DNA of 32,723 nt from the IMG/VR virus record IMGVR_UViG_3300049216_000607, positions 1-32,723 of that record, one strand, 5' to 3'. Positions 1-21,926 of the stretch are shown piece after piece. Position 1 is the stretch's first letter. Each line of letters starts with the position of its first letter. Origin of the DNA: a virus. The notes below the pieces were generated by a model, which searched no databases, was not told the origin of the DNA, and was given only the letters and a program-made list of their open reading frames with translations. Both the position numbers and the translations under genes were made by a program.

Positions 1-423
1 ATGTCTGAAATACCCTCGCCTCTCATCACTGCTTACCTCGCTGCCCACTACAGCTTCATCTCGGGCAGTGACAGAGTGCCTGTCCGTATCGGTGAAGCTT
101 GTCTCGCGGCCGCCCGCCTGATAAGCGAGTTGCAGTGCCCTGGGGCGTTCTACATCACCGCATATAACCCACGCAGCAAAGCGAGGACTTCCGACCAGAA
201 CGCGACAGCGTCCACCGAGCTTCTGGCCGCACTGGAGGTTATGCCGGTGCGGGTGCTGGGAGCGATCGGCGAAGATCCGGAGGGAACAGTTCCCCCAGAG
301 CCCGGCTTCATGGTGTTTGGACCTGCACAGAAGGATGCGGAAGCGCTGGGTAAGAGGTTTGGGCAGAATGCGATCGTCTGGATAGCTCCCAGCGGCGTGC
401 CCCAGCTCCTGTTGCTGAGGTAG
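1..423 (+). CDS. DUF3293 family protein
   Basis: 140-aa protein beginning at the first base of the window, so an upstream in-frame extension cannot be excluded. It resembles the DUF3293 family: an N-terminal stretch with a Tyr/Phe-rich helix, the central block AFYITAYNPRS (about residues 49-59) and the C-terminal block FGQNAIVWI (about 119-127). The family is small, cytosolic and without a proven biochemical role. It lies about 70 bp upstream of a metallophosphoesterase in the same orientation. It may be host flank or a phage accessory gene; nothing here decides between these. Recognition is by motif memory only. Confidence 0.7.
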   Translation: MSEIPSPLITAYLAAHYSFISGSDRVPVRIGEACLAAARLISELQCPGAFYITAYNPRSKARTSDQNATASTELLAALEVMPVRVLGAIGEDPEGTVPPEPGFMVFGPAQKDAEALGKRFGQNAIVWIAPSGVPQLLLLR

Positions 424-494
424 CTCGCTTCGAAGGCGGTGTGTGGAACTGGCCTGGACGCTGGTATCGAACGGCGCTTTACAAAGGGGAATTT

Positions 495-1196
495 ATGCTG
501 GATCACATCGACCTTGTCTTGCTCGCAGACACGCATGAACTGCACCGTGAAATCGACATACCGCGTGGGGATATCCTGATTCACGCTGGCGATTTCACGA
601 TGTTCTCGAAGAGCCTCGACGCGATTGAAGACTTCAACGATTGGCTCGGTGAGCTACCCCATCCCTATAAGCTCATTGTGCCGGGAAACCACGAGTTCTT
701 CCTCGAGGCTGACCCGCAACGCCGCCGCCTGCTTTCTAATGGGACTTTGCTCATCAACGAGGCCATTGAGATAGATGGGTTGCGTCTATGGGGGTCGCCG
801 GTAACCCCGCTGTATGGGGGAGCCTTCGGGCTTAGTTCACCCGCAGACCGCAGCAGGCATTGGAGCAACATGCCTGCCACAGACGTGCTGATCACACATG
901 GCCCGCCCTTAGGGGTGCTGGACCGTTCACCCGGCCAGGAACACATGGGAGACCCGGAGCTGTTAGAGGCGGTGCAAAGAATTGCTCCCATGCTCCATGT
1001 GTTTGGGCATGTTCACGGGGCTGCGGGGCAGGTCACAGTCGGTGACACCCAGTTCGTGAATGCGGCCTTACTCGGATGGGATGGCTCTATGCGAAATCCG
1101 GTGTCGTTTCGCATGCGTCGGGCGGCACCTTCGATCAGGCAGAAGTGTCTTGCTCCACGGTCGTCTGCGAAAGTGAGGCTCGATGACCAGAGCTGA
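495..1196 (+). CDS. Calcineurin-like metallophosphoesterase
   Basis: 233-aa protein with the full set of dinuclear-metal phosphoesterase motifs: ADTHELH (D12, H14), HAGDFT (D33), VPGNHEF (N65, H66), ITHGPP and FGHVHG. The small size and the DTH first motif resemble the MPPED2/UPF0046-like branch that hydrolyses phosphodiesters such as cyclic nucleotides; the substrate here is unknown. The frame is open back to 441, but 495 is chosen because AAGGGG lies at 484-489, five bases ahead of the ATG. The end overlaps the next gene by 14 bp. Cytosolic; no signal peptide seen. Confidence 0.85.
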   Translation: MLDHIDLVLLADTHELHREIDIPRGDILIHAGDFTMFSKSLDAIEDFNDWLGELPHPYKLIVPGNHEFFLEADPQRRRLLSNGTLLINEAIEIDGLRLWGSPVTPLYGGAFGLSSPADRSRHWSNMPATDVLITHGPPLGVLDRSPGQEHMGDPELLEAVQRIAPMLHVFGHVHGAAGQVTVGDTQFVNAALLGWDGSMRNPVSFRMRRAAPSIRQKCLAPRSSAKVRLDDQS

Positions 1197-1545
1197 CGGA
1201 AATCGCAGTGGGTCTTCCAGTCTTACCAAGACGAAGCTCGAGGTTGAGAAGCAATTCTTGAAGACGAAGATATTTCATGGGCTGAAGGAGCTGCGCCCCT
1301 GGTTCGATTCTCCAGCAACCGTGCATTTCGATGCGCGCGATTTCCAAGTGGTCGTCGAACGCTGTTCGCGTCATGTTGTGACGATCAACGGCGTGGAGGT
1401 CTTCACGCACAAGGGCGAGCTACTCGAGGTCAGCTTCCAAGATGAAGGCGCCGATTCATGGTGTCTGGATCTTATAGTGAAGTACCAGCACGTTCCTCGC
1501 ATATCCTTCAGCGCGACCTACTCCGTACCTGAGGACGTCGATTAG
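1183..1545 (+). CDS. Hypothetical protein, 120 aa
   Basis: Not recognised. It starts inside the end of the metallophosphoesterase gene (14-bp overlap), so the two are probably translated together. The N-terminal 20 residues are basic and Ser/Thr-rich, followed by a helix and then alternating hydrophobic residues that suggest a small beta-rich domain (about residues 40-115) with an acidic C-terminus. There is no signal peptide or membrane segment. A stop at 1545 is followed 13 bp later by the end of a convergent gene. Confidence 0.55.
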   Translation: MTRADGNRSGSSSLTKTKLEVEKQFLKTKIFHGLKELRPWFDSPATVHFDARDFQVVVERCSRHVVTINGVEVFTHKGELLEVSFQDEGADSWCLDLIVKYQHVPRISFSATYSVPEDVD

Positions 1546-1558
1546 GGAGATCCTTGCC

Positions 1559-1873
1559 TCATCTATTCTCCTCTACGTAGTCCTTGCAGCCTTCGGCGAA
1601 GGACGGAGAGTTCGAACGTTCTCCAGCCTCCTCACATGAACCCTCATCATCAATCCCTTTTTCTTGCGCCCATTCGTAACCTGCCTGGTGCCCACTGCGC
1701 GAGTCACTCGTAGGCATGTAGGAGGACGCAGTCGATTCATCTTCCCGAGTGCCTTTCGGAGCAGTGCTCTCTGATGATATTGACTCGGAGCGAGTCTCAG
1801 GTCTCGGCTCCTTTCTGTAAAAGAAGAGATACAGAAGCGTCACTACGACTAGGAATAGCAGTATCTTTCGCAT
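1559..1873 (-). CDS. Small membrane-anchored or secreted protein
   Basis: 104-aa protein with an N-terminal hydrophobic segment (residues 4-18, rich in L/V/F), then a Ser/Thr/Glu-rich low-complexity linker, then a conserved-looking C-terminal block with GYEWAQEKGI, a Cys, SPSFAEGC and DYVEE. This block resembles short domains of the GYEWAxxxGI...SFxxGC...YV type found in many small bacterial proteins of unknown role. The two Cys could pair outside the cytoplasm. AGGAG six bases before the ATG at 1873 supports the start. It is convergent with the gene ending at 1545 and lies just beyond the terminator of the helicase operon. Confidence 0.6.
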   Translation of the reverse strand: MRKILLFLVVVTLLYLFFYRKEPRPETRSESISSESTAPKGTREDESTASSYMPTSDSRSGHQAGYEWAQEKGIDDEGSCEEAGERSNSPSFAEGCKDYVEENR

Positions 1874-1926
1874 CGGAGTCTCCTGCGCGGAATCCTCTCA
1901 GATACACCGTCCTAGCGCAAGGGAAT

Positions 1927-1956
1927 GGCTCTCCTCGAGAGGCATCGAGGAGAGCC
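1927..1956 (-). terminator. Hairpin after the dnaB-like gene
   Basis: Perfect 12-bp inverted repeat, GGCTCTCCTCGA (1927-1938) and TCGAGGAGAGCC (1945-1956), with a six-base loop, five bases beyond the stop of the leftward helicase gene. The trailing T-tract on the minus strand is weak (ATTCCC), so this is a probable rather than certain intrinsic terminator. Confidence 0.65.
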
Positions 1957-1960
1957 CGAC

Positions 1961-3307
1961 CTATTGTGCCGAGTTCTTATAGCGGATCGTCGGCTTGGGC
2001 ATCATCGATGGCTTGCGGCGAGCGTCGCGAAAAACCCCCGTCGTGGCCTCAAACTCGACAGGGAACGCACTTGTGACGCCGCTGCGCTGCTTCGGAATGA
2101 TGATCTCGCCATCGTCCTCGAGCCCACCACTCTCTTCGTCCCAGCCCCGGTGCAGGAGCAAAACGCAGTGCGCGTCATCGCCAAGGGCGGACGTCTCCCT
2201 GAGATCAGCGAGCGTCGGCGCTTTTGCTTGATACTCGGCCCCCACCTTCCTGAGCTGGCTCAGCAGCAGCACGTGCACACCCGTGTCCTTAGCGAGTGCT
2301 GTAAGCCCAGAGCTTACCTGTGCCACCCGGAGCCGCTCCTCTTTCGCGTCCGAGCCTACCCGCTGCGCGTAGTCCACGGCGATTACGCGGACGCCTTTAC
2401 GGTGTATCGTAGCCCGCGCGCGAGATACGATCTGCTGGACCGTCATCGTGGATTCATCGTTGATGTAGAGCGGCTAGGTGCCTACACGCATCGCTGCATC
2501 AGTAACGCCACGCTTCTGTTGTGGAGTAGCCTCGTTCGGGAAGCGGAAGATTCGCAGGGGAACGTCAGCCTCAATCGACCAGATGCGGTGTAGTAGCGCT
2601 TGCCGGGTCATCTCGAGTGAGAACGCGTGGACCGCTATACCAGCACGACTGCACGCGGCCAGCGCCTGCACCATAAGGCTCGACTTGCCCACCCCGTTCC
2701 TGGCACCAATAACGGTGACCTCGCCGGGGAACATCCCACCGGTGATGTTGTCCAGCACAGGAAGACCATATGGAAAGGTCGCTTGATCCTCAGGGTTCTT
2801 CCACCGGTCTAGGACCTCGACAAGATAGGAGCTGACATGGGGATCGTCTTCCTTGCCGTGTTCTCCGAGTATATCCAGAGCGGATCCCTGTAGCCTGCTC
2901 AAAGCGTCATCCACGTCATCCCGAGCTGCCACTCTCTGGATAAATGCGTTGCATTCCTCTGCACCGCGGCGACCCTTCCAGAGCGCAATGACGCGATCAA
3001 CGTGGTAGGTCACGACGAAGTTTCGTGCGAGCCCGTTCGTCAGGTCGCAAAGCTCAGCTAGTCCCCCGCCTACGCAGTTTGACTCACCGCGCCGCTCCAG
3101 CTCGTTCCAGATCATCAGGAGGTCCACCGTCTCGTGCTCGTCCAGCAACTGGCTCAAGCGACGGAAAAGTGTGCCATAGGCGACCACTCCGAACATCTCA
3201 GGTTTGAGGCGCACGCACTGCGATAGGGCTTCCTGTCCGTCCAGGATGATGTGGCCGATGATTTCGCGCTCGTTCTGTGCGGCGATGAGGGTCTCATCAA
3301 GCTGCAT
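1961..3307 (-). pseudogene. dnaB: DnaB-like replicative helicase, in-frame amber stop
   Basis: The frame encodes a DnaB-type hexameric helicase of 448 residues if one stop codon is read through. The N-terminal domain (about 5-110) is followed by the RecA-like domain with Walker A GARNGVGKSS (201-210), SLEM (230-233) and, after the lesion, Walker B-like VIAVDYAQ and LLLSQLRK with QRSG near the end. Codon 278 is TAG (2474-2476), between MRVGT and PLYINDES; both halves are in the same frame, and CAG would restore the usual Q-P-L-Y-I-N-D sequence. ATG 3307 is chosen because CAGGAG lies nine bases upstream, with ATGs at 3334 and 3324 as alternatives. It overlaps the DUF1376 gene end by 11 bp. A truncated product would lack Walker B and the DNA-binding loops. 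Confidence 0.85.
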
Positions 3308-4171
3308 GATCTTCATCTCCTGCATAGTCTTCATCGCGATACCTGCGCCGGGACGGTGCCCAAGCCTGGTGCGCAGGCGTGCCCTCGTCAAGGTGAGCCC
3401 AGCGTTTCTCCATCATCTCCACGCTCTTGAAGAGGTGATCGATCCAGTCCACCCACTGCTTCCCGCTTGGATTGCTGCCCATGTTGAAGACGCTGGAGGT
3501 CGGCCCATCGACGGCCCGCCTGAGAGCATTCTCCGCCTCCTCGATGCTGCCGAACCGGAGACAGCACTCATTCAGGCATGCCATCCCCTTCTTCATGCGC
3601 TGTTCCGTGAGCGCGTACCGCTCGACGCTACGGCCGACCTGCTGCAGGTAGTAGCTGAAGACACGCTCGACGGCCTCGCGGGCTTTCTTGAGACTCTCGT
3701 TGCTCGATCGAATAGCAGGCTGACCTACCGACGCCGAAGGCGCCGGTAATGGTTCTTCTTCTTCGGAAACAGAAGCAGAAACGGAAGGCATTCCCCGGCA
3801 TTCCCAGCCGATGCCGCAGCACGTGCCCGGGCATCCTTATCCCAGCGCTTGCGGGCCTTCACGGCCTGGCCTCCGTTGAACCTGACCTGCTTCTCCGCCT
3901 CTACGACCATGCGAGGATTCGCGCGCCAGCCCGCTTCGACGACCGGGAACTTACGAAGGAGAACCTCACGGCTACGCTGCCACTGCTTTGGCGCCATGCG
4001 GGAGAGTCGGCGAAGCCGTTCGTCGTCGTCTTCGAGATAGCCGTGGCGCTCACTGAGCCACGCATTGCTGAGGAGGGAGAAGTACGCGCCCACCTCTTCG
4101 AGAGTCATAGTCTGAACGTCTGGGGATCCCCAGAAGTCGGAAGGGTAAAACCTGAAGGCTGGGCTGTTCAT
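3297..4171 (-). pseudogene. DUF1376 (YdaU-like) replication protein, frameshifted
   Basis: The N-terminal half (from 4171) is a DUF1376 domain: FRFYPSDFWGSPDV, MTLEEVGAYF, then WLSERHGYLEDDDERL and AEKQVRFNGGQAVKARKRW. Near 3790 the coding continues in the -1 frame, with a Ser/Glu/Pro linker and a C-terminal domain (YALTEQRMKKGMACL, then VDWIDHLFKSVEMMEKRW) of the kind that ends phage replication-initiator proteins. One inserted base would join the halves into 291 aa. The open frames overlap by 67 bp and contain no canonical slippery heptamer, and the internal ATG at 3791 has no well-spaced ribosome site, so a mutation is favoured over a second gene or programmed shift. It begins with an ATGA overlap with the AlpA-like frame. 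Confidence 0.75.
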
Positions 4172-4391
4172 GCTGCCCGTCTTTCAGCGATGGTTGCGGT
4201 GACCTGCTCGCTCTCGCGTTCGCTGATAAAGCGCTCGATGGTCGAGCGGCGCCAGCCGACGGCACGATCACCGAGCTTGAACGGGGCCGGGAATTCCCCG
4301 CGGGCGATCTTCTTGAGATGGTGGGCCGGGCGTAGCCGGTGATGGTCGTGACCTCTTTGAAGCGGATCACACGGTCGATGTCGAACTGCAT
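4168..4391 (-). pseudogene. alpA: AlpA-like HTH regulator, single-base deletion
   Basis: The first 25 residues (FKEVTTITGYARPTI) match the helix-turn-helix of AlpA-type phage regulators. After about 4315 the expected continuation KKIARGEFPAPFKLG, then AVGWRRSTIERFI, is found one frame over and ends in a TGA overlapping the next ATG (ATGA, 4168-4171). The span is 224 nt; adding one base gives a 74-aa protein of normal AlpA length. The ancestral codon was probably TAC (Tyr), now TC. Without repair, translation continues as basic nonsense to about 4050. AGAGG seven bases before ATG 4391 supports the start. AlpA proteins activate excision or early genes in phages and satellites. The 160 bp upstream should hold its promoter, but no clear boxes were seen. 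Confidence 0.75.
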
Positions 4392-4553
4392 GGGGTACCT
4401 CTCACAATGAACAGCCGCAGGCGCTAGGACACATCTGGATACCAGCGCAGCAGCATATGTAGGGGAATACCCATCACCCCCTCCCGAGCTGGAATATCAA
4501 GCTCAAGAAATTGTGAAAAGATTTCGAGGACCACCAGCTGTCCACGAGGGCAT

Positions 4554-4577
4554 AGAAAACCCCTCCGGCTGGAGGGG
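4554..4577 (-). terminator. Intrinsic terminator between xis-like and AlpA-like genes
   Basis: Minus-strand hairpin CCCCTCC / GGAGGGG (arms 4571-4577 and 4560-4566, four-base loop) followed directly by TTTTC. It lies just beyond the stop of the HTH gene at 4584 and separates the integrase/HTH transcript from the alpA-DUF1376-dnaB transcript. Confidence 0.85.
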
Positions 4578-4583
4578 TGGAAG

Positions 4584-4802
4584 CTACAGTGGGGTGGCAT
4601 CGATGGTTTTCTCTTTGATCCATCGGCGCAGTGCCAGCAGGGGAACCCGAACGCTCCGGCCGCGGCGCAGCGAGGGTATCTCGCGGGCGGCGATCATGGC
4701 GTAGACCACGGTCTTGCTCAGGCCAGTGTGCCGCACGACGTCCGCCACCCTCAGCAGAACAAGCTCTTCATCGAGCACGGGCGGGACTGCGTTGGTGGTC
4801 AT
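4584..4802 (-). CDS. Excisionase-like helix-turn-helix protein
   Basis: 72-aa DNA-binding protein of the MerR/excisionase (HTH_17) type: ELVLLRVADVVRHTGLSKT forms the helix-turn-helix, followed by the wing SLRRGRSVRVPLLALRRWI. It starts nine bases after the integrase stop, with GGTGAT just upstream of the ATG, so it is co-translated with the integrase and ends at its own terminator. This position fits a recombination directionality factor that pairs with the integrase, although similar small proteins also act as transcription regulators. It is the only intact gene in the leftward arm. Confidence 0.75.
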   Translation of the reverse strand: MTTNAVPPVLDEELVLLRVADVVRHTGLSKTVVYAMIAAREIPSLRRGRSVRVPLLALRRWIKEKTIDATPL

Positions 4803-4811
4803 GGGATCACC

Positions 4812-6031
4812 TTATGCACTTCGGGGGAACGAGATCACTTCCGCGCCCTTCATCTTGAGCGTGTCGAGGAAGTCAGCCCATGCCTGCATCATCTTGTGAC
4901 GCTCGGCGAGGTGCTTGGTGCGGTTGTAGGCTTCGCCGTTCGCATCCTTGACCCTATGGGCAAGCTGATGCTCGATCACATCCGTTCGGAAGCCGAGAGT
5001 TTCATCCAGCAGCGTGCGCGCGGTGGCGCGCAGGCCGTGAGTGGTCATCTCCTCGGCGGGTATCTCCATGCGCCTCATGGCCGCCAGCAGCGCGTTGTCG
5101 CTCAGAGGGCGTCCTCCGCCGCGGGCTCCGGGGAAGACCTTGCGCCCGTTGCCGCTGGTCTCCCTCATCTCTTTGAGAATCCCGACCGCCTGCGTCGATA
5201 GCGGCACTATATGCTCACGCACATCCGACTTCTTGGTCTTCTTTATCTCGTAGCGCCATTCCTTCTTCGCTAGGTCGAACTCCGACCACTCGGCGTTGCG
5301 CAGTTCACCGGGCCTCACAAAAAACCAGAGGTGCGAGGCGAAGAGCGCATCTGACAGTCGTCGTGCCGTAGTACCCGTCAAACGCTCGGAGGATTGAACC
5401 AAGCTTCTCGGGGTCCAGGGTGGTTGCGAAGTGCCCGGCCTCCGGTCGCTCAAGGGCCCCGCGGAGGTTCACGGTGGGATCGGAGAGGCACCTGTGAGCG
5501 GCAACGCCGTAGCGAAAGATCTGCCCAATGATGCCCAGCGCGCGGTTCGCTGTGTCGGGGGCCCGTTCCTCGATCGGACGCATAGCCGCTAGAACTTCGG
5601 TCGCCTGCAGTTCGACGATCGGGCGTCGACCCACCTTCGGAAAGATGTCACGCTCAAGCATCCGCTCGACTCGGTCCTTGTGGCTCTTCGCCCACTTCGT
5701 TCGTTTGGCCAGGAACTCTCGTGCCGTCGCTTCGAATGTGTTGCCGGCCCGCGCAATCCGCTCGCGCTTCTGCTCCTTCTTCTTCTCTCCTGGATCAATG
5801 TCCTGAGCCAGCAGCTTGCGCGCTGCATCACGACGCTCGCGCATCGCGCAGACCCACATCTGGGTACTGCCCGAACGACAAGCGCTTCTCACGGTCAGCG
5901 TAGCGGTACTTCATGCGCCACAGCTTGCCGCCGGCTGGTGATACCTCGAGATAGAGAGCCTTCTCATCGGAGTACCGCTTAGCGGTCGCCTGTGGCTTCA
6001 CTGTCCGCACGAACGTGTCTGTAAGGGGCAT
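4812..6031 (-). pseudogene. int: Tyrosine integrase (DUF4102 type), two frameshifts
   Basis: The pieces together make a P4-type integrase: an N-terminal arm-binding domain (KRYSDEKALYLEVSP), a core-binding domain (RVERMLERDIFPKVGRRPI) and the catalytic domain with Arg in VRPGELR, Lys in KKTKKSDVR, HGLR, LAHR and the tyrosine in EAYNRTKHL. Lesion 1 (about 5842): DAR and ERRDAARKLLAQ are out of frame, explained by loss of one CG from a GCGCGC run. Lesion 2 (about 5320): LAPLVF and VRPGELR are out of frame, explained by one extra T in a six-T run. Undoing both gives 1221 nt, or 406 aa, normal for the family. No single piece keeps both DNA-binding and catalytic parts, so integration and excision should be lost. 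AGGAG lies upstream of ATG 6031. Confidence 0.85.
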
Positions 6032-6102
6032 CGTGTGAGCGTCTCCTGCAGATTTTCCGGAATGCCCCCAAGAATGCCCACGCCAGAGTGGCTATATCAG
6101 GA

Positions 6103-6142
6103 TTTCTTGCGATACATAAGGAGACACTATTTTCGCAAGAAA
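6103..6142. promoter_or_regulatory. Spaced 10-bp inverted repeat, candidate operator
   Basis: TTTCTTGCGA (6103-6112) and TCGCAAGAAA (6133-6142) are perfect inverted copies separated by 20 bp. TTGCGA inside each arm resembles a -35 box, and TATTTT lies at 6128-6133, but the 15-base spacing is short. The layout fits a dimeric regulator or integrase-arm site in the divergent control region. Function is inferred. Confidence 0.5.
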
Positions 6143-6235
6143 ACCGCGCCGTTGCTAGGCGGAAGCTACGTCCGGAGACATTAGGATATGTGAGGGTGGT
6201 GGCCAGAGACGGGATCGGTCCCTAGCGCACCTTAG

Positions 6236-6270
6236 AAACCTCAGTAAATACGCTGTTTTCTGGGGTTTTT
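6236..6270 (+). terminator. Possible rightward terminator or leader hairpin
   Basis: AAACCTCAG (6236-6244) can pair with CTGGGGTTT (6260-6268), with one G-T pair and a 15-base loop, followed by more T. It lies upstream of the first rightward gene, so it could limit read-through into the early operon. The large loop makes it uncertain. Confidence 0.35.
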
Positions 6271-6387
6271 GAAGAGCGAGATGAGAGAGAAGTGCCAGAA
6301 GTCCCGGACTTGCTTTCAAATTGCTTGCAAAAATCGAGACGAAATCGTTTCGGTCATCACGCTCTCAGTTTGTCTAAGGAGAGCATC

Positions 6388-6963
6388 ATGAACCACATCA
6401 CCCTGCCCGCAACCTTCGCCCGCTCCGTCCGTCGCGTCAAGCTCCCGCCGCCGCGCCTCGGCCCCAACGTCGTCGTATCGACCGAGTCGGTCACGCTGGA
6501 GGCCGTTCAGTTCGCCCCAGCGCTGAGGGCGGCGACCGCGCAACCACCGACCCCCGACCCGCCGCCTGCTCCGGCTCCGCAAGCTCCCCAGCCCTCAGCC
6601 GCGCGGCGGGTTAAGGCGCAGCCCTTCCCGAACGTTTGCGAGGTCGACACCCGGGGCCTCGCTGACCTGGAGCTTGAAATCGTTCGAATCTTGTCTGGCA
6701 GCTCAGCGCCGGTGCGACGCATCGTCGAACAGATATCGGTCGTGAGATCGCAGCAGGAAGTGCAGACGATCCTCGACGGGCTCATAGCCCGGGGGAAGCT
6801 GCATAAATTCATCGGTAAGAAGATGAGCGTCAGATACTGCCTCGCGCGTTCAGCTACTGATGCACCCTCACAAAAAGTTACGACGATACCTGAGGTGAGA
6901 GCAGGCTCAGCAGTATTACCTCAGCAGCGAGACCACGTCACGGATTGGATGCGGGCTCGGTAG
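6388..6963 (+). CDS. Pro-rich linker protein with probable winged-helix domain
   Basis: 191-aa protein, first gene of the rightward operon. Residues 50-85 form an Ala/Pro-rich disordered linker (PPTPDPPPAPAPQAPQP). Residues about 95-155 alternate helices in a pattern typical of a winged helix (LELEIVRIL, then VRRIVEQISVV, then EVQTILDGLIARGKLHKF). The start at 6388 is chosen for TAAGGAG seven bases upstream; the frame is open to 6292. A DNA-binding regulatory or replication role is plausible from the fold and position, but the family was not recognised. Confidence 0.6.
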   Translation: MNHITLPATFARSVRRVKLPPPRLGPNVVVSTESVTLEAVQFAPALRAATAQPPTPDPPPAPAPQAPQPSAARRVKAQPFPNVCEVDTRGLADLELEIVRILSGSSAPVRRIVEQISVVRSQQEVQTILDGLIARGKLHKFIGKKMSVRYCLARSATDAPSQKVTTIPEVRAGSAVLPQQRDHVTDWMRAR

Positions 6964-7005
6964 ATCAGAGTATGGGCCGAAACGTTCCAACGTGAGTATT
7001 CATTC

Positions 7006-7028
7006 AAAAAGACGCCCGACTTCGGGCG
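7006..7028 (-). terminator. Intrinsic terminator on the minus strand
   Basis: Read on the minus strand: CGCCCG, AAGT loop, CGGGCG (7013-7028), then TCTTTTTG. This is a textbook intrinsic terminator shape. No leftward gene is visible upstream of it. On the plus strand the same stem precedes the ribosome site of the gene starting at 7043. Confidence 0.65.
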
Positions 7029-7042
7029 CACAGGAGAACAAC

Positions 7043-7450
7043 TTGCATCACACAGCTGTCCCACTACATAGCCCTCGGTTTATAAATAGGCTGTTCTTCA
7101 CCAACTTAGTGCCTGACTACGATCGCCCAGAAATTTGGACTTCGATTGAAAGCGATTTAGAGCAGTATTTAGAGCAGTACTACCTCGTCAACGCTGACGA
7201 TGAACTTTGCGTGATCTTGCTCGCCGCCGCCCGCGCACGTTGCGGTAAGGCGTTTGACAATGCTGCTGTCGAGGTACTGCGCAAGAGCATCCCTGTCTTC
7301 GATCGTTACTTGCTCGCCGACCGCTACATAAATGAATTCTCCACCGGGCGTTGTGCAGACACCCGGGGCTTGCGCTACAACAGCACGTGCAAACTCATAA
7401 AAGCAGCCTTGGAGACTGCTCACGCAGCAGCCTCGGCGATGTTTAGCTGA
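7043..7450 (+). CDS. Hypothetical protein, 135 aa
   Basis: Not recognised. A mostly helical, soluble protein with an acidic patch (ESDLEQYLEQYYLVNADDEL) and conserved-looking hydrophobic helices after it; no signal peptide. Two starts are possible: TTG at 7043 with AGGAG six bases upstream, chosen here, or GTG at 6992, which adds 17 residues but has no ribosome site and spans a stable hairpin. It ends 20 bp before a strong terminator, so it closes the first rightward transcript. Confidence 0.55.
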   Translation: MHHTAVPLHSPRFINRLFFTNLVPDYDRPEIWTSIESDLEQYLEQYYLVNADDELCVILLAAARARCGKAFDNAAVEVLRKSIPVFDRYLLADRYINEFSTGRCADTRGLRYNSTCKLIKAALETAHAAASAMFS

Positions 7451-7470
7451 TCTAGCCCCGCCCGAACCTC

Positions 7471-7502
7471 AAGCCCCGGCCACGAGCCGGGGCTTTCGTA
7501 TT
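7471..7502 (+). terminator. Intrinsic terminator
   Basis: Perfect 10-bp stem AAGCCCCGGC (7471-7480) and GCCGGGGCTT (7486-7495), loop CACGA, followed by a T-containing tail. It lies 20 bp after the stop at 7450. Confidence 0.8.
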
Positions 7503-7624
7503 TAACCACGCTGAAGGATTTCCACAGATTCCTTCCTTCAATATCTCAGGCTCACGATGCCTCACGAGTATTTCCCCAGTAACACGCCCGGGGCAATGAC
7601 GCCCTCGGCACAGGAGATTCACCC

Positions 7625-7834
7625 GTGAACACGACCATCGACAACACCCTCCGCACCTCAGCCAAGCTCCTCCCCCTCAAGGCGCTCGCCCTCACCCTCG
7701 GCATCCACTACCAAACGTTGTACGGCTGGGTGCGTGAGGGAAGCATCCCCTTCACCCGTGTCGGGGCCCGCATTAAATTCGACGGCTCCGCTGTCGCTGA
7801 CTGGCTCGATCGACGCCGCGTCGGGGCTAGATAG
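7625..7834 (+). CDS. Small helix-turn-helix DNA-binding protein
   Basis: 69-aa HTH_17/excisionase-type protein: LPLKALALTLGIHYQTLYGW is the helix-turn-helix, followed by VREGSIPFTRVGARIKF (wing) and VADWLDRRR. GTG start with AGGAG about nine bases upstream. It begins a new transcript after the terminator at 7471-7502. It is likely an early regulator or directionality factor; it is distinct from the leftward HTH gene at 4584-4802, giving the element two small proteins of this fold. Confidence 0.75.
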   Translation: MNTTIDNTLRTSAKLLPLKALALTLGIHYQTLYGWVREGSIPFTRVGARIKFDGSAVADWLDRRRVGAR

Positions 7835-7910
7835 CCCGCGCTATTTCGCAAGCGGACGCAGGAAATTGACTACCGAACCCCATATACAGAAGCACCCAAC
7901 GGAGACTCGT

Positions 7911-8114
7911 ATGACCAGCCACACCCACCGCACCACCGACCTCGACCGCGCCATGATGGTCGAGGTCGGCGCTTACTTCCTCGACAAGCATGGCTACCTC
8001 GCCGCGCGTCACGTCGTTCGCAACGTCCCTTGCTCGATCGATAACGATGAGCGCGAAGCTATCGTGTTCGCGTTCGCCATTCTCAGCCGCACGGGAGGCA
8101 ACCGTGGCAAGTAA
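7911..8114 (+). CDS. Hypothetical protein, 67 aa
   Basis: Not recognised. A small helical protein (LDRAMMVEVGAYFLDKHGY, then RHVVRNVPCSIDNDEREAIV) without membrane segments. ATG 7911 has GGAG about seven bases upstream; the same frame is open to 7734, but that part overlaps the preceding HTH gene. It overlaps the following gene by 11 bp, indicating translational coupling. Confidence 0.6.
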   Translation: MTSHTHRTTDLDRAMMVEVGAYFLDKHGYLAARHVVRNVPCSIDNDEREAIVFAFAILSRTGGNRGK

Positions 8115-8889
8115 CAGATCCACCTCGTTTCAGTGCTGGCGTCAGCTAGAATTTCGCGGGGATATGCGTATCTCCCGCATGTCCCCGGTCCATCGGCGCT
8201 TCCTTTATCCGCTGCTCCTCAACAGTTTCCACCTGCCGACAGGCCCGCTCATCCCTGACGACGATGATGAACTGTGGCTTCTCGCAGATGCAGACTCCAT
8301 CGAGGAGTGGAAGCAGGTGCGCGAGAAGGTCTTGGCAGTAATGGTCAAGACAAATGACGCGCAAGGGAAGCAATGGCTGAGCCACCCGATTCTCGATGCT
8401 GATCACGGGTACATGTCACAGCGTGCTGAAGAGCGTAAGGCCAGCGGTAGCAAGGGAGGTAAGGCTAAAGCAGCGAAGTCCTCAGGCGACGAGCCTGCGG
8501 GCGGAACCCCCGACGATGTCTCGATTACGTTCGAAGACATAGTTGATGGAGAAACGAAACAATTTCAGCCAGAGTTCGCGCAAGCCGGGGGTTTAATTCA
8601 GGATTTGATCTCCGATCGATTCGGGGACGGCGAAGGCTCGACAATGAAACCTTCAGCGTGGTGCGAGTGCGTGCAGGCTGTCAAAGACGTCCTCGATGGT
8701 TGGGAGCAGTGTGATACAGATGATCTTTTCGACTGGCTATCTTCACCTGACACTTACTACTCGAAGGAGACATTCAAGAACTGCAAAACTCCCTTAGGGT
8801 TGGTACGTTCATTTGTGAAGAACGCCGAGGCAATCAGGAAGGATTATGAGCGCCATGTCCGCGCCAGGGCAGATTCATCGAGTACCTAA
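8104..8889 (+). CDS. DUF1376-type replication protein
   Basis: 261-aa protein. The N-terminal half has the DUF1376 pattern: RSTSFQCWRQLEFRGDMR, then YPLLLNSF, PTGPLIPDDDDELWLLA and EEWKQVREKVLAVM, followed by a Lys/Gly-rich linker at about 118-130. The C-terminal half contains an acidic segment and a helical domain (CECVQAVKDVLDGWEQC). DUF1376 proteins are phage replication-initiation factors, often paired with helicase loaders. The GTG start at 8104 is chosen for GGGAGG at 8093-8098 and the overlap with the previous gene; the frame is open upstream to 7990. It is the last gene before a strong terminator and a repeat block. It is a second, intact member of the family broken at 3297-4171. Confidence 0.65.
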   Translation: MASNRSTSFQCWRQLEFRGDMRISRMSPVHRRFLYPLLLNSFHLPTGPLIPDDDDELWLLADADSIEEWKQVREKVLAVMVKTNDAQGKQWLSHPILDADHGYMSQRAEERKASGSKGGKAKAAKSSGDEPAGGTPDDVSITFEDIVDGETKQFQPEFAQAGGLIQDLISDRFGDGEGSTMKPSAWCECVQAVKDVLDGWEQCDTDDLFDWLSSPDTYYSKETFKNCKTPLGLVRSFVKNAEAIRKDYERHVRARADSSST

Positions 8890-9009: not shown

Positions 9010-9016
9010 CTGTAGC

Positions 9017-9116
9017 AGATAGAGATAGAGATAGAGATGAAGATGAAGATGAAGATGAAGATAGAGATGAAGAGATAGAGCCAGAGATAGAGCCAGAGAT
9101 AGAGCCAGATGAAGAT
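9017..9116 (+). repeat. Purine-rich hexanucleotide tandem repeats
   Basis: One strand is nearly all purine: about three GATAGA units, four GATGAA units, then three copies of a 12-base unit GATAGAGCCAGA, ending in GATGAAGATCAT. Such a tract is rare in compact phage DNA. It could be iterons or a polypurine structure next to a replication gene, or simply a slippage-prone microsatellite. No gene is supported here. Confidence 0.8.
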
Positions 9117-9158
9117 CATGCGGGCTGCGCCCTATCATCTGCAGGTTATCGCTGCGCT

Positions 9159-9224
9159 ATCTATCTATCTCAGAAGCAACAGCAACAGCAAAAGCAAAAG
9201 CAACAGCAAAAGCAACAGCAATAA
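9159..9224 (+). repeat. CTAT tetranucleotide and AGCAAC/AGCAAA hexamer repeats
   Basis: CTATCTATCTATCT (9159-9171) is followed by a run of AGCAAC and AGCAAA hexamers up to about 9224, then two C-runs. One frame would encode a Ser/Asn/Lys repeat, but it has no ribosome site or conserved flanks, so it is not called a gene. From 9225 to 9419 nothing else was recognised. Confidence 0.75.
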
Positions 9225-9419
9225 GCATTTACACCCCCCCAGTAACGCCGCACCCCCCCCATGGCCCTTCCCGCGCACCACGCGCCCACCGTGAGCCCGC
9301 CGCGCCCTCGGTGATACGTATGGTCATCTCTACCTCACCCGCGTCCTGTACGTTGCCTGCGCGTAATGAGGCTGGCGTTCATATCTCGCAAGTGAGTTCA
9401 GCAAGGCGACTACCGGAAC

Positions 9420-11361: not shown

Positions 11362-11715
11362 ATGAACAAGTTCGAAGCAGCAGTAGAAGACGCGGGCAAG
11401 GTCGCCCTTAACGTCGTCGATGGGAAATACATCGACGAAGCAATCACCTGGACTGAGAAGGCCGCGTCGGTTCTGGCGACCGCGATCAAGGATCAGCCTG
11501 CACTGAAGACCGCGCTCACCACGCTCGTCACCAAAGCTGAGGCCATCGGTGCGGACGCCGTGACCGACGCCGCTGGCAAGGGCCTCGACTTAGCCAGCGA
11601 TGCAAAGACGCTGGCCGATGTTGAGGCGCTCTTCGCATGGATCATGTCGACGCTTGTGCCTTTGATCGAGAGCGTGTACGCCGAGGTCGAGACGGACGTC
11701 ACCCAGGCCGCGTAA
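11362..11715 (+). CDS. Ala-rich helical phage protein, 117 aa
   Basis: Not recognised with a function. Almost entirely helical and Ala/Asp-rich, with repeated KALxT-like amphipathic helices (TALTTLVTKAEAIGADAV) and a more hydrophobic C-terminal helix AWIMSTLVPLIESVYAEV. The latter is interrupted by acidic residues, so it is probably not a holin-type membrane span. AGGAAGG lies eight bases before ATG 11362. It follows TerS by 12 bp and precedes the methyltransferase by 5 bp, so all three are likely co-transcribed. Confidence 0.6.
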   Translation: MNKFEAAVEDAGKVALNVVDGKYIDEAITWTEKAASVLATAIKDQPALKTALTTLVTKAEAIGADAVTDAAGKGLDLASDAKTLADVEALFAWIMSTLVPLIESVYAEVETDVTQAA

Positions 11716-11720
11716 TCGCA

Positions 11721-12497
11721 GTGGCGAAGCTTACCAAGCCCGAAGCACGGCAGCACGAGAAAGCTTGCGAGCTTCTTGCTAAGGATGTCCTGACGAACGA
11801 CGACAAGTGGTTCGTCTTGCAGAATTGGCAAGAAGCTGCCACAAATAACAACACGGTCGCGGGGGCGTTCTTCACGCCCCCTGGACTCGCTGCTGATTTC
11901 GCCATCGACGCTTGCGGTCACGGTCGCGTGATCGACCTCTGCGCAGGGATAGGGGGTCTTTCGTTCGCTGTCTGCAATCGCATGACAGCATGGAAGTCCG
12001 ACGTCGACCGCGCGGAGTATGAACGTCGATTCACGTTGATCGAACTGAACCCCGCCTATATCGAAGTGGGCAAGAAGATCATGCCGCACGCGAACTGGGT
12101 GCAAGCAAGTGTGTTCGAGCTGCCCGCTGATCTGGGCCGCTTCGAATGTTCGATCAGCAATCCGCCATTCGGCAAAATCAAGCACGACGGAGCCGCACCC
12201 CGTTACAAGGGTTCGGAGTTCGAGTACAAGGTCATCGACATCGCCTCTCAGCTCTCGGGTTTTGGCTGCTTCATCATCCCCCAAGGTTCAGCGCCGTTTG
12301 TCTTCAGCGGACGTCGTTGCTACGAAGAGCGTTCATCCGCGAAGCACTCGAAGTTCCTAAAAGAGACCGGCATCGTTTTGTCCGTTGGATGCGGTGTGGA
12401 TACCACCTATCACGTCGACGACTGGCACGGCGTCGCGCCCGTGTGCGAGATCGTGACGGCAGAGTTCTCCGAATACGTTGCACCTATCGTGTGCTAG
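11721..12497 (+). CDS. Orphan DNA methyltransferase (N6-adenine type)
   Basis: 258-aa SAM-dependent methyltransferase. AGAFFTPPGLAADFAIDA (about 48-65) resembles the N-terminal segment of adenine methylases, motif I is VIDLCAGIGG (70-79), the acidic residue of motif II is in LIELNPAY, and catalytic motif IV is SNPPFG (146-151). The NPPF signature fits N6-adenine rather than C5-cytosine methylation. No partner restriction enzyme is nearby, so it is an orphan, perhaps protecting phage DNA from host restriction. GTG start at 11721 follows the previous stop by five bases. The 3' end overlaps the convergent membrane gene by 14 bp. Confidence 0.8.
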   Translation: MAKLTKPEARQHEKACELLAKDVLTNDDKWFVLQNWQEAATNNNTVAGAFFTPPGLAADFAIDACGHGRVIDLCAGIGGLSFAVCNRMTAWKSDVDRAEYERRFTLIELNPAYIEVGKKIMPHANWVQASVFELPADLGRFECSISNPPFGKIKHDGAAPRYKGSEFEYKVIDIASQLSGFGCFIIPQGSAPFVFSGRRCYEERSSAKHSKFLKETGIVLSVGCGVDTTYHVDDWHGVAPVCEIVTAEFSEYVAPIVC

Positions 12498-13167
12498 TGG
12501 ATGGGACGACAGGTGACGGGTTAATCGGAAGCTGAATTGTTTGCGGCTGATGCAGATCCACCGTCACTGGTTTTGTTACTTCAAACCGCGTGATTGATGC
12601 GTCGTTTCTGTGATACCAGTTCAATGTTCCTAAAGCTCCGAGTAGAACAAGGGACAGGCCAAGCGCGCCATACGCGATATAACGCACATACCTAAAGGTT
12701 GTCTCGCCGGACTTGACGCGCTCCCATGATTCGTCGAGGACCGCCATAGTAGCACTCTCTACTGCCTTCATAGCGTTCGTCACGTCTTCTTCTAAAACTC
12801 TAGGAGTCGCTGTTGCGACGGTTCTTGCGTTGATCACGACGGTGTAGAGCTTGTGGTGCAGCTTCTTATTCTTCGACTCATCTTTATGCTGTTTGATGTC
12901 GAGCCGCAAGACAATTCGATAGAGTGCCATATTTGCACGTTCACTTACGGCTTCATCACCGACGGCATAAGCATATGTCTTTTCCCGTTGGGCTTTCTTG
13001 ATCTGATACTTGCGGACGAGCAAGGCTATATAGGTCGCTACATCATCGCGAAGACCGTCAATCCACTGCTGGCGGAACTCCGACACCTTCCCATCCTTCG
13101 CCAATGTGACACCAATGCTTGCGACAGCTGCACTAATGACCGCCGCGAGAATCGTTCCGCTCTCCAT
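12484..13167 (-). CDS. Two-TM membrane protein, antisense accessory gene
   Basis: 227-aa protein with an N-terminal hydrophobic helix (5-23), the block KVSEFRQQWIDGLRDDVATY (27-46), a long basic/helical middle, and a second membrane helix YIAYGALGLSLVLLGALG (163-180), then a Pro-rich tail. The FRQxWIDxLRDD block with flanking membrane helices is seen in many uncharacterised bacterial and phage membrane proteins. It is the only leftward gene within the rightward late region, a typical accessory (moron) layout, so lysogenic expression and a host-benefit or superinfection-exclusion role are possible but unproven. GAGG seven bases before ATG 13167 lies inside a hairpin. Confidence 0.65.
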   Translation of the reverse strand: MESGTILAAVISAAVASIGVTLAKDGKVSEFRQQWIDGLRDDVATYIALLVRKYQIKKAQREKTYAYAVGDEAVSERANMALYRIVLRLDIKQHKDESKNKKLHHKLYTVVINARTVATATPRVLEEDVTNAMKAVESATMAVLDESWERVKSGETTFRYVRYIAYGALGLSLVLLGALGTLNWYHRNDASITRFEVTKPVTVDLHQPQTIQLPINPSPVVPSTSTR

Positions 13168-20757: not shown

Positions 20758-21165
20758 ATCAGCGATGCAGTCAAAATCGAAGGACTAAACGACCTCTCCA
20801 CTCTGCTGACGGAGCTGACGCCGCGTGCTGCCAAGCGCTATCTCTCCCGCGTGGCTGAACCCGCCGCGCAGGTTGTGCTCGATGCGATGGCTGAGACAGT
20901 CCCAGTCGGCGTTGGCATCCTTGAAGAACAGCTCGGCTGGCAGAAGAAATGGGGTAGCGATGGCGACCAGACCACCATGGACATCGCCATCGGTCCTCTG
21001 AAACCCGCCTTCTGGGGATCATTTCAGGAGTTCGGAACAGCCACGCAACCCGCCAGACACTGGTTCGGGAATGCCTGGGAGAGCTGTCGCGATGAATGTC
21101 TGAACGTGTTCGCCACCGAAGCCATCGGCCTTCTACAAGATCTTGAAAACAGGAAGGGCGACTAA
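20758..21165 (+). CDS. HK97 gp10-like tail component, start unclear
   Basis: The homologous-looking frame opens at 20755 after a TGA: SDAVKIEGLNDLSTLLTEL matches the usual gp10 N-terminus, followed by PRAAKRYLSRVAEPAAQVVL, WGSFQEFGTATQPARHWFGN and a helical end. Between 20755 and 20851 there is no ATG, GTG or TTG in frame. GAGGG at about 20745-20749 lies eight bases before ATC at 20758, so a rare ATC start is possible; otherwise GTG 20851 gives a 104-aa protein lacking about 32 conserved residues. A lost start codon is a third option. The frame ends in TAATG with the glycosyltransferase gene. Confidence 0.6.
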   Translation: MSDAVKIEGLNDLSTLLTELTPRAAKRYLSRVAEPAAQVVLDAMAETVPVGVGILEEQLGWQKKWGSDGDQTTMDIAIGPLKPAFWGSFQEFGTATQPARHWFGNAWESCRDECLNVFATEAIGLLQDLENRKGD

Positions 21166-21926
21166 TGACAACCCTTCCAAAAGTCAGCGGCATCATGCCC
21201 GTCGGCTGTGGCGACCGTTATTTCATCGTCGCTGCCAACGCGTTCCTCTCCCAGCGCTACGAAGGTGAGCTTGAGCTAGTCATCGTCGACAACAGCGATG
21301 AGTCTATCGAGTCATTGCTGCCCGTCGACGACCGCATCGTTTATCACCGCTGCGCCCGCATGGCCGTTGGCGCTCTTCGCAACCTTGGAACCTCGCTGTC
21401 GACGGGCGATGTCTGTGTCTCCATAGACGAAGACGATTGGTCTCATCCTGATCGCATCGCCACGCAAGTGCAGCGTCTGATTGACACCGGCAAGGCTGTC
21501 ACAGGCTTCCACTCGATCTTCTACTACGACACCCACAACGACAGCACTTTCAAGTACTGGTACGAGCCCGCCGGGCGCAACCATCCTCCATATGCGTGTG
21601 GCTCTTCGCAAATGTATACGCGGGCGTGGTGGACGAAGCATAAGTTCCCCGAGACAGGCGTCGAGGATTACCCCTTCTCCCGCAACGCGCTCAATCACAA
21701 CCAGCTCGACTCCATCGACGCTGCGCACCTCTTCGTCGCCCGCGCTCACAGCGATTCCACCTGCTACCCGAAGCAACTCGGCGTTCACCGACAGTTCCCA
21801 GCCGTGCCCCGTGCTGCACTGCCCGCCGAATTCTTCACCGCCATCAACCCGATCACCGTAAAGCCCGCCGCCAAGCAGAAGGCCAAGCGCAATCAAAAAA
21901 CTTCAAACGCACCCACCCAGGAGTAA
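21165..21926 (+). CDS. GT2-family glycosyltransferase inside the tail operon
   Basis: 253-aa GT-A fold glycosyltransferase of family 2: nucleotide-binding start KVSGIMPVGCG, then ELELVIVDNSDES (35-47), GALRNLGTSLSTGDVCVSID with the DXD-type DEDD at about 88-91, and WSHPDRIATQV. The C-terminal part has FSRNALNHN and a Lys-rich tail. No signal peptide or membrane span, so it should be cytosolic and act on soluble acceptors, possibly a virion protein (tail tube, capsid) or a phage-modified surface molecule. AGGAAGGG lies just upstream; starts by TAATG overlap. Its place between the gp10-like and tail tube genes is not part of the standard tail cassette. Acceptor unknown. Confidence 0.82.
   Translation: MTTLPKVSGIMPVGCGDRYFIVAANAFLSQRYEGELELVIVDNSDESIESLLPVDDRIVYHRCARMAVGALRNLGTSLSTGDVCVSIDEDDWSHPDRIATQVQRLIDTGKAVTGFHSIFYYDTHNDSTFKYWYEPAGRNHPPYACGSSQMYTRAWWTKHKFPETGVEDYPFSRNALNHNQLDSIDAAHLFVARAHSDSTCYPKQLGVHRQFPAVPRAALPAEFFTAINPITVKPAAKQKAKRNQKTSNAPTQE

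Follow-up and report, generated by a model that had tools for sequence, protein, structure and literature searches.

Tandem arrays of elements integrated at tRNA genes, in which each member carries its own integrase and its own tRNA fragment, are documented in the Islander database (PMC4383910). The locus described here resembles such tandem islands and prophages in its integrase, in a displaced 3′ tRNA fragment, in a crossover in the T-stem region and in what would be a neighbour at the same site; the tyrosine integrase of the element is frameshifted, and the tRNA fragment has the right orientation and distance. Unlike those arrays, the locus shows a single fragment and a single, broken integrase, and the full tRNA would lie outside the window, that is, the whole linear IMG/VR record IMGVR_UViG_3300049216_000607 (32,723 bases), whose right end cuts a fibre gene and in which no complete tRNA gene was found.

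Three other described systems share part of this organisation. P4-like or AlpA-bearing satellites (PMC8628076) also combine an Arm-DNA-bind_3 integrase beside a tRNA with an AlpA-type regulator and a replication gene in the arm. The arm studied here differs in its DUF1376 and DnaB genes and in its broken frames, and neither a P4-type primase-helicase nor capsid-hijacking or satellite packaging genes were found in the window. Integrase-bearing siphophage proviruses from metagenomes, for example IMGVR_UViG_3300050020_000295 (G003), have a particle module that is syntenic with that of the window from HNH to the tail tip, at about 43-81% protein identity, but they carry another integrase and other replication genes, have no DnaB and adjoin no broken arm. 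Gene transfer agents (GTAs) likewise keep head-tail genes beside broken integration genes; in the window, however, the broken genes are probably not those of the phage, which has its own replication gene and an HNH gene, and there is no sign of host-DNA packaging. The features of the window are collected in Table 1.

Table 1. Features of the window, with coordinates on the record and the evidence for each.
Feature	Position	Strand	Evidence or remark
DUF3293, metallophosphoesterase and two small genes	1-1873		host DNA or left-element cargo
dnaB-like replicative helicase, single in-frame TAG at 2474-2476	1961-3391	-	DnaB N and C domains in two parts
DUF1376/primosomal gene, probable frameshift near 3790	3297-4171	-	DUF1376 and PHROG 9327 in first half
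AlpA-type regulator, frameshift near 4315-4325	4168-4391	-	AlpA genes of relatives match second frame only
HTH_17 excisionase-like gene, intact	4584-4802	-	domain match; PHROG 66
Tyrosine integrase (int), Arm-DNA-bind_3 domain, frameshifts at 5837/5841 and 5317/5321	4812-6031	-	domain; homologs
att junction, tRNA-Phe 3′ end without tRNA body	6197-6217	-	21-base match; int-tRNA spacing in relatives
Phage early region: HTH_17 gene (7625-7834), DUF1376-like replication gene (8104-8889)	6292-8889	+	
HNH, TerS, capsid, TerL, portal, protease, connector, tape measure, tail, fibre	9983-32723	+	frames intact; cut by contig end
HK97 gp10-like gene, ATC in start-codon position	20758-21162	+	comparison with close relatives

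Lesions of the left arm

Comparison with homologous sequences confirms that the lesions in the arm at 1961-6031, on the minus strand, are real. The integrase spans three frames: every homolog aligned to it (about 20 loci) moves to another frame at 5837/5841 and a second time at 5317/5321, and these shared switches indicate two indel-type lesions, as the first-pass annotation had proposed. In many of the loci that carry integrase relatives, an AlpA-family gene lies downstream of the integrase. These genes match only the second frame of the AlpA-type gene, from about 4314-4335 on, and its start (4391) lies in a different frame from the matching part, which bears out the disruption claimed for it. 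The amber codon reported in the dnaB-like gene is also borne out, as the TAG at 2474-2476 is in frame and the read-through product aligns without a gap across it to solved DnaB helicases. Recoding of TAG was dismissed, because a single in-frame TAG is seen and because genes such as that for DUF3293 (1-423) terminate in TAG.

The frameshift claimed for the DUF1376 gene stands only in part. Its N-terminal part (4171-3725) is clearly recognised, but no homolog of the second frame (3297-3836) was detected in phages, plasmids or relatives, and this frame has an ATG of its own at 3791; the split near 3790, which is read from the N half, is therefore probable, not proven. The arm also contains an intact HTH_17 gene (4802-4584) that had been overlooked.

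Sequencing or assembly error, in which an arm intact in nature would have acquired its lesions from local low coverage, had been named earlier as a weakened alternative and is disfavoured here as well. The data are one single contig, and the frameshift at 5317/5321 falls in the only run of at least six identical bases in the arm; against this, the seven runs of that kind in the right part hold no detected lesion, one of the lesions is a stop produced by substitution, and the lesions are clustered, the probability that all five would fall in the arm being about 2e-4 under a uniform rate (1e-3 without DUF1376). We regard error as improbable.

The tRNA-Phe attachment-site junction

Upstream of the integrase, CGATCCCGTCTCTGGCCACCA at 6217-6197 matches the 3′ end of tRNA-Phe over 21 bases and ends 165 bp from the integrase start. 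Of the 26 loci of integrase relatives with enough flank, 20 have a tRNA or tmRNA gene on the same strand upstream of the integrase; its 3′ end is 138-224 bp from the integrase start in the 18 loci measured, and two of the relatives (L032 and L041) are likewise located at tRNA-Phe. When the 3′-end pattern was searched in some 400 genomes with the T-stem base left open, it was found in one genome, within tRNA-Phe, and a one-mismatch copy was found in another, again within tRNA-Phe; a search of viral contigs for the tRNA-Phe 3′ end gave no match. No second att copy or tRNA fragment was found within the window, and none marks the far end of the left element; short direct repeats in 1-8000 were considered as att candidates and look like chance. 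As no tRNA body accompanies the 3′ end, 6197-6217 is an att junction with the DNA of another element to its right, and not the ordinary tRNA-side end of an element. The broken element would then run leftward from the junction, and the phage would begin to its right.

At the opposite edge, position 1 is the ATG of the DUF3293 gene, which is a real gene, and trimmed proviruses among the relatives begin in the same manner. A record that starts at the ATG of a gene suggests that the DNA to the left of position 1 is probably non-viral. For the left-edge genes (1-1873, with those at 1-1545 among them) no counterpart was found among the particle-gene relatives, and the region may be host DNA or belong to the left element as cargo. 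The metallophosphoesterase, used as a bait, did not tell a host origin from a phage origin.

Replication gene and particle module of the phage

The DUF1376-like gene of the phage early region is intact and matches its counterparts in G022 and G023. A DUF1376-family gene lies directly upstream of HNH, on the strand of HNH, in G016, G022 and G023, and the gene in the window occupies the same place. A conserved and intact gene of this type indicates that the phage carries a replication gene of its own, to which the broken DUF1376-dnaB pair adds a second set. Searches of viral contigs with the phage replication gene and with DnaB as baits found no relatives. The stretch 9015-9225, between the replication gene and HNH, is filled with dense short repeats (agagat and gatgaa runs, together with caacagcaaaagcaa units) and holds no convincing gene.

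The head-tail proteins of 24 relatives align with the particle module in single frames over about 18 kb, and neither a frameshift nor a stop was seen. This agrees with the first-pass annotation, in which the head and tail genes were undisrupted with the possible exception of the gp10-like start. At that start the window has ATC (20758-20760) where G003, G009, G019, G005, G006 and G010 have ATG or GTG, and the first usual start after it comes 31 codons further on. Here the phage either uses a rare start codon or has itself suffered a lesion. In the TerS-capsid interval (11637-13167), a methyltransferase-like gene and a 227-aa gene on the opposite strand were noted, neither of which was found in the relatives, and a glycosyltransferase-looking gene (read by eye) inside the tail module, at 21165-21926, is conserved in most of them.

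A portal search in viral contigs returned 51 loci, of which about 46 had 47-73% identity, and a TerL search in GTDB genomes found no relatives; the lineage of the right-hand phage is so far known mainly from metagenomes. In the fully fetched records, the order HNH, TerS, capsid, TerL, portal and tail is mostly common, with local rearrangements. The dN/dS of the particle genes, a check proposed earlier, is about 0.1-0.2 and points to purifying selection, but with dS near-saturated it is silent on the present state and cannot date a recent change. Codon usage, with some gene sets mis-framed, did not separate the two parts of the window.

With regard to integration genes, an integrase is unbroken in 15 of the 24 relative records, split in one (G019) and absent from eight. 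The 15 unbroken integrases are unrelated to the broken one, no integrase similar to it was found among the relatives fetched in full, and DnaB occurs in 0 of the 24. Some of these records are complete prophages; G019, G022 and G024 have tRNA-end repeats on both sides, at lengths of 34-37 kb. In G009, G011 and G017 the integrase lies at the late-gene end and points inward, that of G017 being beside its tRNA. In G013, by comparison, the left end has the integrase of that phage with a homolog of the window's HTH_17 directly behind it, so the phage of the window might once have had a left-end integrase. The split in G019 shows that integrases can be broken in other members of the lineage: at 748-1247 of L119 (G019:1-19000) the integrase domain is found in two frames, in a relative flanked by repeated tRNA-Thr ends. 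Two back-to-back integrases on opposite strands were also seen at about 11473-14170 of L131 (G013:20001-40000), that is, adjacent integrative elements near this phage type.

Proposed tandem integration and competing readings

The arm is unlikely to be the phage's own, because it ends at the tRNA-Phe att junction, because the phage carries a replication gene of its own in a conserved position, and because the particle-gene relatives lack this integrase and DnaB and yet are integrase-bearing prophages. The leading suggestion of the first-pass annotation, a GTA-like element unable to excise or replicate itself that still assembles particles, takes the arm to be the phage's own and is doubtful; on the same grounds, its alternative of a composite that includes a dead left element is favoured.

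A domesticated or GTA-like cluster, whose head and tail genes would be kept by selection after the loss of replication and excision, finds no positive support and appears highly improbable. Intact particle genes in a lineage under purifying selection would suit it, but at this distance dN/dS is blind to a recent change of state, the broken arm stops at an att junction and probably belongs to a different element, and the phage retains its intact replication gene; moreover, its relatives are integrase-bearing prophages, several of them between repeated tRNA ends, and HNH beside TerS/TerL fits cos-type packaging, not random headful. Very unlikely too, in our estimate, is an arm of the phage's own in a particle producer that can neither integrate nor load helicase and is kept by complementation or host selection.

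The main rival is a single free or circular phage, with attP at 6197-6217 in mid-contig and a broken int-dnaB operon of its own, for which integration and helicase would be supplied by relatives unless it were a dead end. The order int(-), att, early(+) is that expected if phages like G009, G011 and G017 were circularised, and such a phage would measure about 36 kb in all, like the relatives. Such a phage, however, would carry two DUF1376-type genes, together with a DnaB seen in none of the relatives and genes at 1-1545 that were not found in them, and the start of the record at an ATG suggests trimming from a chromosome. We consider this reading rather doubtful.

What we hold to be probable is that a decayed tRNA-Phe element and a normal prophage stand in tandem, the prophage having its integrase to the right of where the window ends. 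The left element (int, HTH_17, alpA, DUF1376 and dnaB, from 6217 leftward) would be an old integrative element or prophage remnant that first entered tRNA-Phe. The phage would later have entered the tRNA-proximal copy of the site, pushing the older element outward and leaving one displaced tRNA fragment between the two. In the absence of selection on them, the recombination and replication genes of the older element would then have decayed through small indels and a nonsense change. The right element (6217 to beyond 32723) would be a functional temperate siphophage that has intact particle genes and a replication gene of its own, and its integrase would be expected beyond 32723, next to the full tRNA gene; this placement, made by analogy with G009, G011 and G017, is the weakest step. 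Counting against tandem integration, the record contains one integrase, the broken one, and one tRNA fragment, the far ends of both neighbours being outside it, and the arms of these phages are mosaic, so that the lack of DnaB in the relatives is no proof. The codon usage shared by the two parts and the left-end integrase of G013 also weigh against it.

Most likely, the phage itself need not be crippled and the situation is an ordinary genome scar. A dead neighbour and a live phage can end up joined in one provirus record, which then gives the appearance of a crippled or domesticated phage, and an att junction between the integrase and the phage genes is a cheap test that separates a fused neighbour from a crippled phage. 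If the broken arm were the phage's own after all, the locus would qualify as a possible case of domestication in a lineage known mainly from metagenomes.
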